Notes: generated from the letters alone by a model not told the origin. Shown: positions 6,259 through 10,086, numbered from the stretch's first letter. The stretch: 42,449 bases of DNA from an uncultured Spartobacteria bacterium (GCA_903929475.1 CAIYUV010000083.1:1-42449); one strand, 5' to 3'. Translations and numbers: made by a program.

Positions 6259-6873
6259 CTACTCTTCGAGTTCTGCGAGTTCCTTTTTCAGCATCGTTTT
6301 CAGGCGGTGCCTCACGAGATAGACTTGAGCGATGTTCACCCCGAGAGTCTTGGCCGTCTTGCTCGCGCTCCAGCCTTTGCTCACGGCGCAGTCGAAGATT
6401 TGGAAATGTCTGGCGTCCACTTTGCGCTTGAGGCAGGCGAGCGCGGAGTCGAGGATGTGGCGCTGCCATTCCTCCTCCCACACAGTTTCAAACTCCGCTT
6501 CGCCCGAACCGGGGAGGCGATCCATCGTTGCAGTGAGGCGCGTGTCGTCGTCGCGACGGACGTGGCGGTTCTTCGGGCGCTTGCGCTGTTGGTCTATGAT
6601 GCGCCAGCGGGTCATTTGCAGCAGCCATGCTTTGAAAGGGCCGGCCTTGCTATCATAGCGCGCGATATTTTTTGCGACGGCGATGCACGTCTCCTGCACG
6701 ACTTCCTGCGCTTCGTCGTCCTTCATCCCGGCGCGACATGCGACGCCGTAGATGAGCTGCCAGTAAGTCTCGAAAAATTCCTGCCACTTGCCCTGCTCGT
6801 CCCAATTTCCAAGCCGCGCGATGAGGCTCAGGCGCGTGGCGAGCATCGGGTCGTTTTTCGGGGCGCGGGGCAT
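6259..6873 (-). CDS. ECF-type RNA polymerase sigma factor
   Basis: A 204-residue sigma-70 family factor of the extracytoplasmic-function type. Region 2 spans about residues 27-95 (WQEFFETYWQLIYGVACRAG; DDEAQEVVQETCIAVAKNI; FKAWLLQMTRWRIIDQQRKR) and region 4 about 140-200 (HFQIFDCAVSKGWSASKTAKTLGVNIAQVYLVRHRLK). Regions 1.1 and 3 are absent. The gene starts 21 bp after the M56 protease gene, on the same strand, so blaI, M56 and sigma form an operon. No anti-sigma factor is adjacent, and the M56/BlaI pair may take that role. This type is common in Planctomycetes and Verrucomicrobia. Confidence 0.9.
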   Translation of the reverse strand: MPRAPKNDPMLATRLSLIARLGNWDEQGKWQEFFETYWQLIYGVACRAGMKDDEAQEVVQETCIAVAKNIARYDSKAGPFKAWLLQMTRWRIIDQQRKRPKNRHVRRDDDTRLTATMDRLPGSGEAEFETVWEEEWQRHILDSALACLKRKVDARHFQIFDCAVSKGWSASKTAKTLGVNIAQVYLVRHRLKTMLKKELAELEE

Positions 6874-6894
6874 GACGCGATGGGGGAAACTAAT

Positions 6895-7902
6895 TTACTG
6901 TTCGCCGGGAAATGGATCGGCGGCGAGGCGTGTCTGGATTTCTCCCGCCGTCCAGACCCCAGCCTGCGGGAGCAGGTGTGCGACGGGCTTGCAGGCGACA
7001 CACGCAAGCAGCGCGAGCGCGGCGGCGGCGCAGGCCGTGGTGTCGAATAGGCGCGCGAATTTTCCCGCGCGACCAAGCGGTGTGAGGATGCGGCGGACGC
7101 GCGCTTCGAGTTTGCCAGTGCGCGGCGATGCCATCGTGAGAAACGCCGCCGCGACGGATGGACGATGGCGCGAGGCGGTGGCCATTTCAAAAAGGAGCGT
7201 GGCGTAGTCATCCGGCGCGGCGCCGCGCGAGACGACAAGTTCATCACACGCAAACTCGCGTTCGACGGCGAGCTGGCTCTGGAGGAGCCACGCGAAAGGA
7301 TTGAACCAATGCACCGCGCACGCGAGACGCCCGAGCATGTGCGCCCAAAGGTCGCCGCGACGGAAATGACCCAGTTCGTGAAGCAGCACGAGCCGCCGCT
7401 GCTCGTGTGTCCATTTGCGCGATTCATCCGGCAGCAACACCGTGCGCTGCAGCAGCCCGGCTGCGCTTGGAACAAAACCCGGCCCGGCCAGTCGCAGCCG
7501 CACGTTGCCACGCAGGCCAAGCGTGCGCTGGCACTCGGCGAGAAGCTGCAGCCATGCACGACCTGGCAATGGCTGCGTATTTTTCAAAAGCCTGCGCACT
7601 GCGACTGACTCCACCAAAAGACGCGCCCCGCACACGGCGAAACCGGCAAACCACAGCCATGTTAACCAGAGCGCATCCGGTGCAGTCTCACTCCATTTTG
7701 CCAGTGCTGCCGGTGCCTGCACTTCCACGCGAGGCAGCGGACGCACGAGGCCAATCGCGAGCAGCATCAAAGCCGCAAATGCAACCACCGGCACCGCCTG
7801 CCGCACACGCGAACGCCATCCGCGTGGACAGATCCAGACCGCCGCGCACGCAAGCGCGCCCACGACGAAACTATGCAAAAACCAGCCGGAAAACGCGCTC
7901 AT
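6895..7902 (-). CDS. BlaR1/MecR1-like M56 membrane metalloprotease lacking the sensor domain
   Basis: A 335-residue integral membrane peptidase. Hydrophobic segments lie near residues 8-25, 36-53, 78-97 and 285-303. The zinc motif HELGH is at 175-179 in LVLLHELGHFRRGD, and the third ligand lies in EREFACDE (214-221), both typical of M56. BlaR1 and MecR1 are about 585 residues and end in a beta-lactam-binding domain; this protein stops about 30 residues after its last membrane helix, so that sensor is missing. It overlaps blaI by 4 bp, and the protease probably cleaves or triggers loss of BlaI. The signal it detects is unknown. Confidence 0.9.
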   Translation of the reverse strand: MSAFSGWFLHSFVVGALACAAVWICPRGWRSRVRQAVPVVAFAALMLLAIGLVRPLPRVEVQAPAALAKWSETAPDALWLTWLWFAGFAVCGARLLVESVAVRRLLKNTQPLPGRAWLQLLAECQRTLGLRGNVRLRLAGPGFVPSAAGLLQRTVLLPDESRKWTHEQRRLVLLHELGHFRRGDLWAHMLGRLACAVHWFNPFAWLLQSQLAVEREFACDELVVSRGAAPDDYATLLFEMATASRHRPSVAAAFLTMASPRTGKLEARVRRILTPLGRAGKFARLFDTTACAAAALALLACVACKPVAHLLPQAGVWTAGEIQTRLAADPFPGEQ

Positions 7903-8279
7903 TTCTTCCTTTCGTTGAGCATGGCTTTGATGCGCGCCAACTCCGCGTCATCGGTTTCCTTCGGGTCGAGAAGTGTGGCGACGAGATCGGCGGGGCTGTT
8001 GTTGAAGAACGTAGAGAGTAATCGCCGCAACGCGCTCTTGCCTGCTTTCTCAGGCGAGGCCACGGGCAGGTAGATGTAGCGCTTGCCATCGCGCTCGTGG
8101 CGCAGATGGCCCTTTGTCACAAGCACTGCCAGCAAAGCGCGCACGGCAGAATAGCTCGGTGCATCAGGAAGCTGTTCATGAATTTCGTTCGCTGTCGTGC
8201 GGCCATGACGCCACACGATTTCCATAATCTGCCGCTCGCGGCGGGAGTGAAGATCGTTGTCTGGCTGGTTCGCAGGCAC
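7899..8279 (-). CDS. BlaI/MecI-family transcriptional repressor
   Basis: A 126-residue winged-helix repressor. The DNA-binding part covers residues 12-75 (RRERQIMEIVWRHGRTTANEIHEQL; YSAVRALLAVLVTKGHLRHERDGKRYIY), with a C-terminal dimerisation helix region (residues 80-126). In the known family the repressor sits as a dimer on palindromes in its own promoter and is inactivated by proteolysis started by the M56 partner. The partner is directly downstream (ATGA overlap). Two candidate palindromes lie upstream at 8322-8337 and 8366-8381. Confidence 0.93.
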   Translation of the reverse strand: MPANQPDNDLHSRRERQIMEIVWRHGRTTANEIHEQLPDAPSYSAVRALLAVLVTKGHLRHERDGKRYIYLPVASPEKAGKSALRRLLSTFFNNSPADLVATLLDPKETDDAELARIKAMLNERKK

Positions 8280-8321
8280 GGCTGCTTTCTAGCGCGAAAA
8301 ATGTGCGCGTCAAAAACAAAG

Positions 8322-8337
8322 TGCAGTATTTTTAGCA
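8322..8337. promoter_or_regulatory. Candidate BlaI operator, proximal to blaI
   Basis: Read on the minus strand, this 16-bp site is TGCTAAAAATACTGCA, an imperfect dyad (TGCT/TGCA arms around 8 bp). It matches the second site at 8366-8381 in 13 of 16 positions. It lies 42 bp upstream of the blaI start. Confidence 0.55.
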
Positions 8338-8365
8338 GAAAGTTCTTGCCATCGGCCCGATGTTC

Positions 8366-8381
8366 TGCTGCATTTTTAGCA
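8366..8381. promoter_or_regulatory. Candidate BlaI operator, proximal to the lipoprotein operon
   Basis: Read on the minus strand, this 16-bp site is TGCTAAAAATGCAGCA, a dyad with TGCT and AGCA arms. It begins 44 bp from the start of the other copy, about four helical turns, and ends one base before the ATG at 8383. Binding here would block expression of the lipoprotein gene. Its overlap with the start region suggests a leaderless or very short-leader transcript, or that the true start is slightly downstream. Confidence 0.55.
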
Positions 8382-8382
8382 C

Positions 8383-9117
8383 ATGAAATCGAACTCCCTT
8401 CTTAACATCGTGCTCACTTCCGCAGCAATGGCTCTCTCCGGTTGCTCGTCCTATGTGAACTCTCCCACCGCCCGCGCCGCACGGGCCAAGCAAAGCGAAG
8501 AGTTCTCCCATCCGCTCATCGCACGCGCCTACAACGCAAAACCCACCATCCACTTCCCTGCCACCATCGTCGTCGCCCCGATGGGCGGCAGCGCGCAGCA
8601 GGAACTCCGGGCACTCGATGCATTCGGTAAACTCGATTCACTCAAGTCGCTTCCGCAGGTCAAGGACATCACCACGCTCAGTTCGCTGCTCATGTCGGAC
8701 CACGATGGCGAAATCGAAGGGACGAATGGAAAATCGGCACCGATTTGGAACAAGTCCGACCTCATCCTGCGCGAAGCCGCCGCAAAAATGCACGCGGACG
8801 CCGTGCTGCTGATCCAGTTGGAAACCAACATCACCGACGGCAAAATCTTCACGCCGCTAACAACGCTTTCACTCGGCCTTTTCCCAAACGACCGCGCTGA
8901 AGTCATCGCCACCGCGCTCGCCGCACTTGTGGATACACGCACGGGCTACGTCTATGCGACCGCCGAGCGCAGCGCAGGCAGGACGTGCTACGCGATGACC
9001 TGGGATGACAGCACGCGCGATCGCGCCAGAGAACGCGCCACACGCTCTGCGATGGAAAAATTACTCACCGAGTTTCCTGCCGTCTGGCGCGGAGTCGTGC
9101 AGACTCACCGGAAATGA
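8383..9117 (+). CDS. Predicted lipoprotein, first gene of BlaI-adjacent operon
   Basis: A 244-residue protein with a lipoprotein signal peptide ending in lipobox LSGC (lipidated C21), so anchored to the envelope. The mature part is a mixed alpha/beta domain (TIVVAPMGGSAQQELRAL; ILREAAAKMHADAVLLIQLETNI; ATALAALVDTRTGYVYATAERSAGR). This recalls lipoproteins whose N-terminal half resembles the TolB/CsgG-type nucleotide-like fold (ADAVLL strand, then DTRTGYVYA), but I cannot name a family. It overlaps the next gene by 4 bp and is divergent from blaI across two operator-like dyads, so it is a likely target of BlaI. Confidence 0.8.
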   Translation: MKSNSLLNIVLTSAAMALSGCSSYVNSPTARAARAKQSEEFSHPLIARAYNAKPTIHFPATIVVAPMGGSAQQELRALDAFGKLDSLKSLPQVKDITTLSSLLMSDHDGEIEGTNGKSAPIWNKSDLILREAAAKMHADAVLLIQLETNITDGKIFTPLTTLSLGLFPNDRAEVIATALAALVDTRTGYVYATAERSAGRTCYAMTWDDSTRDRARERATRSAMEKLLTEFPAVWRGVVQTHRK

Positions 9118-9917
9118 AAACAACCATTCTTCCATTCATTCGTTACGCACTGCTCGCGCTGGCTGTTTGTATTTTCGCCGGATGCGCAAGCTCAGGGCCA
9201 AGCCCTGCGCCGGCTCAGGCCAGAGCATTGAGAACGAGCACTGAAAGACCGGGCTTCGGCACGGCATGGGGCGAAACGCGACAGGCGTGGGTGGAGCCGA
9301 CATACTTTGCCCGTGCGTGGGGCAATCAGCCGAGCGTCAAGGACGTGATCTACTACAACGACCGTGAGGGCACCGATGCGATGCTCGACTATCTCGGCGG
9401 CGAGCCTCGCCCGAAAAAGGGAGCGCAAAACATGGCAGGCGGACTCGTGAGCTGCGGACTGCGTTTTGGCGATGGTCGCTGGCTCGATACGTGGGAAATG
9501 CGCGGCAAGCGCATCGCTGCGGGCGAACCCGGTGCGCATTACGAGGTGGTCGTGAAAAACGAAACGCGTCGGCGTGTGGAAATCGTGCTCAGCGTGGACG
9601 GCCTCGATGCGCTCGATGGTGCAGCGGCGAATTTCAAAAAGCGCGGCTACGTCATCGGCCCGCGCGAGGAACTGGCAGTCGAGGGCTTCCGCACGAGCGA
9701 CGGCACGGTTGCGGCGTTTCGCTTTAAGAGCGTTGGTGAAAGCTACGCACAGCGGAAGCATGGCGACACGACGAACGTAGGTGTCATCGGTCTCGCAGTT
9801 TTTCAGGAACGCTGGTGGAGCGGCGAATCGCACAACCCCGCCAATCGCGCGTGGCGACGCACAGAGCCAAAGGAATTTCCATCCAGCCGCCGCTACGCCG
9901 CGCCACCCGAGGCGTGA
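9114..9917 (+). CDS. Predicted lipoprotein, second gene of BlaI-adjacent operon
   Basis: A 267-residue protein, start coupled to the previous stop (ATGA). The signal peptide ends in lipobox FAGC (C24). An N-terminal region with ERPGFGTAWGETRQAWVEPTYF is followed by a domain with LDTWEMRGKRIAAGEPGAHYEVVVKN and DGLDALDGAAANFKKRGYVI, which looks like a beta-sandwich. Its likely role is structural or binding at the outer membrane, and no catalytic motif is visible. The family is not recognised by name. It is co-transcribed with the lipoprotein upstream and probably with the 44-residue lipoprotein downstream. Confidence 0.8.
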   Translation: MKTTILPFIRYALLALAVCIFAGCASSGPSPAPAQARALRTSTERPGFGTAWGETRQAWVEPTYFARAWGNQPSVKDVIYYNDREGTDAMLDYLGGEPRPKKGAQNMAGGLVSCGLRFGDGRWLDTWEMRGKRIAAGEPGAHYEVVVKNETRRRVEIVLSVDGLDALDGAAANFKKRGYVIGPREELAVEGFRTSDGTVAAFRFKSVGESYAQRKHGDTTNVGVIGLAVFQERWWSGESHNPANRAWRRTEPKEFPSSRRYAAPPEA

Positions 9918-9951
9918 AAACTTTCTCCGGAACACAACACACAACAACACC

Positions 9952-10086
9952 ATGAAACACACCATCCGCATCATCACCGCCGCCATCGTGCTCAGCTTCG
10001 TCGCCGCTTGCGCCGACAAGTCGCAGCCACCCGTGAAGCCCGCACACAGCGACGGCAAGACCGTTTACAAGCCACACGGCAAGTAA
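9952..10086 (+). CDS. Small lipoprotein (44 aa)
   Basis: A 44-residue protein with a signal peptide ending in VAAC (lipidated C20), leaving a mature peptide of about 25 residues rich in Lys, Pro and His (DKSQPPVKPAHSDGKTVYKPHGK). It starts 34 bp after the 267-aa lipoprotein gene and ends just before a hairpin that probably closes the operon. Small lipopeptides of this kind (entericidin-like in size) occur in stress-controlled envelope operons, but no homology is claimed. Confidence 0.65.
   Translation: MKHTIRIITAAIVLSFVAACADKSQPPVKPAHSDGKTVYKPHGK

Follow-up and report, generated by a model that had tools for sequence, protein, structure and literature searches.

A minimal BlaI-M56 pair facing lipoprotein genes in an uncultured Spartobacteria bacterium: a candidate regulator of a conserved envelope lipoprotein family

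RESULTS

Gene content of the locus

The window analyzed here is a 42,449-nucleotide stretch of DNA from an uncultured Spartobacteria bacterium (GCA_903929475.1, CAIYUV010000083.1:1-42449). The locus of interest comprises six genes, i.e., blaI, an M56 protease gene, and an ECF sigma factor gene on the minus strand, facing the three lipoprotein genes lpA, lpB, and lpC on the plus strand (Table 1). This layout had been proposed from the sequence alone, and all of its ORFs were found. The coordinates also agree with the 4-bp blaI/M56 overlap (7899-7902) and the 21-bp gap between the M56 and sigma genes (6874-6894) given in that sequence-only reading; lpA and lpB likewise overlap by 4 bp. The reported absence of a beta-lactamase or penicillin-binding protein (PBP) gene holds for both operons, and the facing genes encode lipoproteins with one lipobox each (LSGC, FAGC, and VAAC in the lpA, lpB, and lpC products, respectively). 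By the criterion of a regulated beta-lactamase or PBP2a gene, the locus is not a bla or mec resistance operon. Related genomes are recorded as Chthoniobacteraceae, Spartobacteria, Verrucomicrobiaceae, or Prosthecobacter MAGs.

Table 1. Genes and predicted regulatory features of the locus (window coordinates)
Feature	Position	Strand	Basis and remarks
ECF sigma factor gene	6259-6873	-	Sigma70_r2 and sigma70-ECF profiles; neighbor, outside the conserved circuit
Minimal M56 membrane metalloprotease gene, 335 aa	6895-7902	-	PF05569 (3e-31), hydropathy, alignment
M56 extracytoplasmic C-terminal tail, residues 317-335, WTAGEIQTRLAADPFPGEQ	6898-6954	-	Motif common to LpB-family C-termini
blaI, winged-helix repressor gene, 126 aa, GTG start	7899-8279	-	PF03965 (2e-29)
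-35-like element TTGACG, putative blaI-M56 promoter	8308-8313	-	Beside O1; TTGAC conserved in genus alignment
Candidate operator O1, TGCAGTATTTTTAGCA	8322-8337		Next to blaI -35-like element, 44 bp from O2; comparative footprint
-35-like element TTGCCA, putative lipoprotein promoter	8346-8351	+	Between O1 and O2; conserved across 9 aligned intergenic regions
Candidate operator O2, TGCTGCATTTTTAGCA	8366-8381		Abuts lpA start codon (8383); dyad, comparative footprint
lpA, lipoprotein gene, 244 aa	8383-9117	+	Lipobox; predicted CsgG/PelC/LptE-type fold
lpB, gene for a 267-aa member of the conserved LpB lipoprotein family	9114-9917	+	Lipobox, homology
lpC, gene for 44-aa lipoprotein	9952-10086	+	Lipobox; present in part of the genus

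The M56 protease ends in a tail motif common to the LpB family

Besides its profile match, the M56 protein has the HELGH motif at residues 175 to 179, the gluzincin motif EFACD, and four predicted transmembrane segments, all typical of an M56 peptidase. The protein extends just 27 residues past its last predicted transmembrane segment and has no C-terminal penicillin-binding sensor domain; its score against the blaR1_generic profile is 72.6 bits, with a cut-off of 400. The ORFs of other M56 proteins in the order are mostly 400 to 1924 aa long, and some contain secretin or carboxypeptidase-regulatory domains. BlaI-M56 pairs lacking a penicillin-binding sensor are frequent among the Verrucomicrobiota genomes examined, and we found no report of what such pairs sense.

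The tail is strongly conserved. Residues R325, A328, P330, F331, and P332 were invariant, like the catalytic residues, in 11 diverse M56 proteins that are 27 to 61% identical to that of the window. The corresponding motif, R..A[DN]PFP, is common to the M56 C-terminus and to the ends of LpB-family proteins, exemplified by PWTDREVKKRLKADPFPGRFATP (G091) and DPWTWMPREVNERLNADPFAKAP (G262). When an HMM built from LpB tails outside the genus was run against 13,036 other ORFs, the top 13 matches were all M56 ORFs of the module (11 genus rows, with one gene counted twice, and two from family f15), 10 of them with E values below 0.002. The motif was found within the last 25 residues of 33 ORFs, namely, 26 M56 and 7 LpB proteins and no others, a count that covers ORFs of at least 80 residues in the gathered loci rather than whole proteomes; because homology to LpB or M56 had guided the choice of most of these loci, the claim of specificity is a limited one. 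The M56 proteins of family f35 have a looser version of the tail. With the tail left out of the tree, the 23 tail-bearing M56 proteins of the genus and f15 grouped together (support, 90/85), and those of f35 stood apart on a long branch of unsure placement.

LpB was detected in 27 of the 286 genomes sampled from the class, including all 19 in which the short M56 is encoded (in one case split across two contigs). Outside the genus, blaI-M56 is divergent from an adjacent lpB in 13 genomes of families f15 and f35, while five f15 genomes have lpB elsewhere and a separate blaI-M56 pair. One genome (G226) has LpB and exclusively large M56 proteins. Families f4 and f8 and Burkholderia have tail-bearing LpB proteins but lack this M56; the tail therefore serves some function independently of the protease. 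The LpB proteins of the genus have lost the ADPFP tail and kept an FAxPP-type end. LpB matched no Pfam, NCBIfam, or PHROG family and had no convincing sequence match in the PDB; its structure model reached a pLDDT of 53, too low for a fold search or for locating a binding groove. As judged from these gene neighborhoods, the core conserved across the class is blaI, the minimal M56 gene, and lpB, with lpA and lpC as local additions. LpB-family lipoproteins with related C-terminal tails, unnamed in Pfam and NCBIfam, were additionally noted in enterobacteria (Klebsiella aerogenes, between speA and speB) and Burkholderia (L141 2656-3384, L140, and L142). A separate observation concerns the PLSDB record NZ_CP134663.1, a 4.9-Mb E. 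coli sequence filed as a plasmid that is apparently a mislabelled chromosome.

The distribution of the tail could also be read as that of a general tag for processing, sorting, quality control, or degradation, recognized by a third envelope protein, with BlaI/M56 regulating LpB without being controlled by it. Such a tag would account for LpB bearing the tail in organisms that lack this M56, and for the genus LpB lacking it although the M56 protein keeps it. However, it should mark more than two protein families, which was not the case in the gathered loci (as distinct from whole proteomes), and the 19/19 co-occurrence of M56 and LpB, including five genomes in which the genes are unlinked, argues against it. 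We regard a general tag as less likely than not.

Conservation within the genus and the ECF sigma gene

The facing arrangement highlighted by the sequence-only reading proved to be conserved: blaI-M56 is divergent from lpA-lpB in 9 of the 10 genomes of the genus, and the remaining genome is only 76% complete. lpC accompanies this arrangement in six of the nine. The outcome for the sigma factor was different from what had been envisaged. Its gene product is an ECF sigma factor by profile scores (PF04542, Sigma70_r2, 3e-13 in Pfam; TIGR02937, sigma70-ECF, 6e-21 in NCBIfam), and orthologues are present in all 10 genus genomes. Those of G004 and G003 (L107 and L109) sit between glmS and a PBP1C-like gene, which hints at a cell-wall role. 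The gene directly follows that of M56 only in the genome of the window, its nearest relative (G007), and a partial genome (G005); in the other seven, the orthologue (63 to 74% identity) is located away from blaI-M56. The sigma gene is therefore a lineage-specific neighbor and not part of the conserved circuit, and the proposed three-way link of BlaI, M56, and ECF sigma did not hold. As for the three lipoproteins assigned to the same system, LpB retains its place class-wide, but lpA and lpC do not, being local additions (lpA occurs elsewhere without operators, and lpC in part of the genus).

That two genomes have the sigma orthologue next to glmS and a PBP1C-like gene would suit a BlaR1-like sensor of beta-lactams or peptidoglycan damage, in which a muropeptide acts directly on BlaI and LpB and LpA serve as envelope repair factors. 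In line with this idea, the BlaI protein of Bacillus licheniformis is released from operator DNA by gamma-D-Glu-m-A2pm in vitro (PMC3305447). The M56 protein, however, lacks the penicillin-binding sensor domain and the operons contain no beta-lactamase or PBP gene, which makes such a sensor unlikely. Even less probable is the original model of a three-part envelope-stress circuit of BlaI, M56, and an ECF sigma factor that extends the response. The 21-bp spacing suggests cotranscription and the gene order is retained in G007 and G005, but the seven genomes with the orthologue elsewhere speak against this model, as do the class-wide blaI-M56-lpB loci, which were recognized without a sigma gene (sigma genes were not a search target there).

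Paired dyads at the blaI and lipoprotein promoters

BlaI has a winged-helix repressor domain scoring above the cut-off of PF03965 (Penicillinase_R) and matches the solved BlaI/MecI structures 1p6r, 1sd6, and 1okr; the 4.5-Mb genome encodes no other BlaI. Within the 103-bp intergenic region, two 16-bp dyads, O1 and O2, bracket the putative lipoprotein promoter. A sigma-70 consensus scan gave no promoter match; before lpB in other families, TTGAC occupies the position equivalent to the -35-like TTGCCA. The lpA transcript is probably leaderless or nearly so. The dyad pattern occurs twice in the window (0.04 occurrences expected), and the pair is conserved in nine genus genomes with a spacing of 43 to 44 bp. 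Across the genus genomes, a close pair was found only at the blaI/lpA locus, with a one-site mismatch needed in G008. A wider genus regulon was considered and rejected: beyond the locus there were only single matches, which in most genomes did not exceed the reversed-pattern control. A lone exact operator dyad lies just upstream of a TTGCAT sequence elsewhere in the genome of the window (G000:C201:5912-5927; L090).

Paired dyads with the same layout precede blaI at other blaI-M56 loci, where the half-sites drift (TGCTAA, TGTTAA, TGCGGA, and TGCTGG). At nine loci with BlaI proteins 44 to 53% identical, the dyad pairs were matched by none of 300 shuffles. The more degenerate pair of locus L032 fell below the strict palindrome threshold, which the genus loci also miss because their dyads are imperfect. 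The drifting half-sites of other BlaI-M56 pairs in the phylum (L027-L034 and L045-L047), compared with the recognition helices, could yield a BlaI recognition code. Operator pairs were found before the unlinked lpB in all five f15 genomes and, with the strict pattern, before 8 of 10 linked lpB genes; three further linked genes were left unscored because no lipobox anchor was found. Among genomes without this M56, none of the nine scored lpB genes had a pair (two more were unscored), which differs from the unlinked set with a Fisher p of ∼0.0005. Repression of the lipoprotein operon by BlaI appears well supported by these dyad pairs, conserved at blaI and lpB promoters and absent where this M56 is lacking. 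The sequence-only proposal that BlaI controls both divergent operons can be kept at the level of very probable, as a single BlaI unit, on the grounds that the paired dyads fill the shared intergenic region and that the synteny is conserved. Paired inverted-repeat operators at own and target promoters are a hallmark of the BlaI/MecI family, recognized here as comparative footprints. That the dyads are instead promoter or UP elements of this phylum is most improbable: O2 overlaps the expected -10 region and the genome has one further, solitary dyad ahead of a TTGC element, but the same paired layout recurs at many blaI promoters while the half-sites change (TGCTAA, TGTTAA, and TGCGGA), and no pair was found at lpB promoters of genomes without this M56 or upstream of the lpA homologues tested.

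The latter came from 23 loci with an lpA ORF outside the genus (a few starts were uncertain), where no upstream operator was found; these homologues were discarded as members of a BlaI regulon. lpA was thus apparently inserted between O2 and lpB in this genus, and lpC seems to have been added behind. The LpA model (pLDDT, 78.6) predicts a beta-alpha fold, possibly of the CsgG/PelC/LptE lipoprotein type, a common envelope fold. Similarity to PelC gave the best Z score (9.5 over 135 residues, 4.0 Å, at 11% identity) and LptE scored 8.8 (134 residues, 3.4 Å), values to be read against the 7 to 8 reached by unrelated folds. Sequence searches of Pfam, NCBIfam, and the PDB gave nothing convincing for LpA, and viral contigs contained no homologues. 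The LpA family (window 8383-9117; L122-L137), characterized by the motif DTRTGYVY, is unnamed and extends to Phycisphaerales, Burkholderiales, Opitutales, and Gammaproteobacteria.

DISCUSSION

Our preferred reading, to which we assign a probability of roughly 0.6, is that the BlaI/M56 module controls the envelope lipoprotein LpB and, in this genus, LpA and LpC as well, and that the M56 tail serves for docking while LpB feeds back on the protease. Comparative footprints suggest that BlaI dimers bound to O1 and O2 would hold both operons down. By analogy with BlaR1/BlaI, for which inactivation of BlaI by the M56 protease upon a signal has precedent (PMC9834060, PMC7593790), a signal outside the inner membrane would activate the cytoplasm-facing zinc protease, BlaI would be cleaved or otherwise inactivated, and both operons would be derepressed. 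We infer envelope stress as the input and proteolysis as the fate of BlaI.

The M56 protein lacks a sensor domain and its tail motif is that of LpB-family C-termini, so these comparisons make it likeliest that the tail is a docking peptide through which LpB and the protease are linked. The tail would dock wherever the LpB tail is usually bound, be it in the LpB core or in a third partner. Since the protease bears the tail of the lipoprotein family, signal sensing may involve the regulated product itself: LpB on the tail would keep M56 quiet, loss or diversion of LpB would free the protease, and newly made LpB would reset the switch. The direction, with LpB acting as a brake, is the least certain step and is a guess by analogy. 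In this genus LpB lacks ADPFP, so simple competition of two tails is not expected and the LpB core or a third protein would have to hold the M56 tail; the loss of ADPFP from LpB fits with M56 supplying the peptide in trans. More tentatively, and at slightly under even odds, such modules may represent class-wide repressor/protease switches with an outsourced sensor, in which M56 reads the state of its own regulated lipoprotein via a copied tail. If true, this would be a self-sensing loop unlike BlaR1, with the regulated lipoprotein taking over the part of the sensor.

What emerges is one class-wide subfamily with a single predicted target, a single operator architecture, and a single short conserved peptide, the latter being the most obvious part of M56 that could sense outside the membrane. 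It also offers an initial clue to a lipoprotein family that has no name as yet and extends to Burkholderia and enterobacteria. In the openly licensed literature we found no paper linking BlaI/M56 to such a lipoprotein or tail.

The BlaR1-BlaI and MecR1-MecI systems of staphylococci and bacilli resemble the module in combining a BlaI-family repressor with an M56 gluzincin membrane protease, inverted-repeat operators, and a divergent target. BlaR1, however, combines protease and sensor domain in one protein, whereas the present M56 has no penicillin-binding sensor and a tail that resembles the C-terminus of the target family. The predicted target is a lipoprotein rather than a beta-lactamase or PBP2a, and the putative operator is a TGCT-N8-AGCA dyad. 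Closer in regulon design are BlaI_0696 and BlaI_1845 of Clostridium thermocellum, with small self-regulated regulons and paired inverted repeats, which are strictly required there for four protomers (PMC8457756); their half-site differs, and we encountered no mention of LpB or a common tail in that report. LpA may resemble CsgG, PelC, LptE, and GNA1162 in its predicted beta-alpha fold, but does not match them in sequence. Finally, the restraint that we propose for LpB is reminiscent of RseB acting on RseA and MucB on MucA, in which an envelope protein restrains the trigger of a proteolytic switch (PMC7593790). This is an analogy that claims no sequence relation, and the partner here would be an M56 protease with its repressor instead of an anti-sigma factor.
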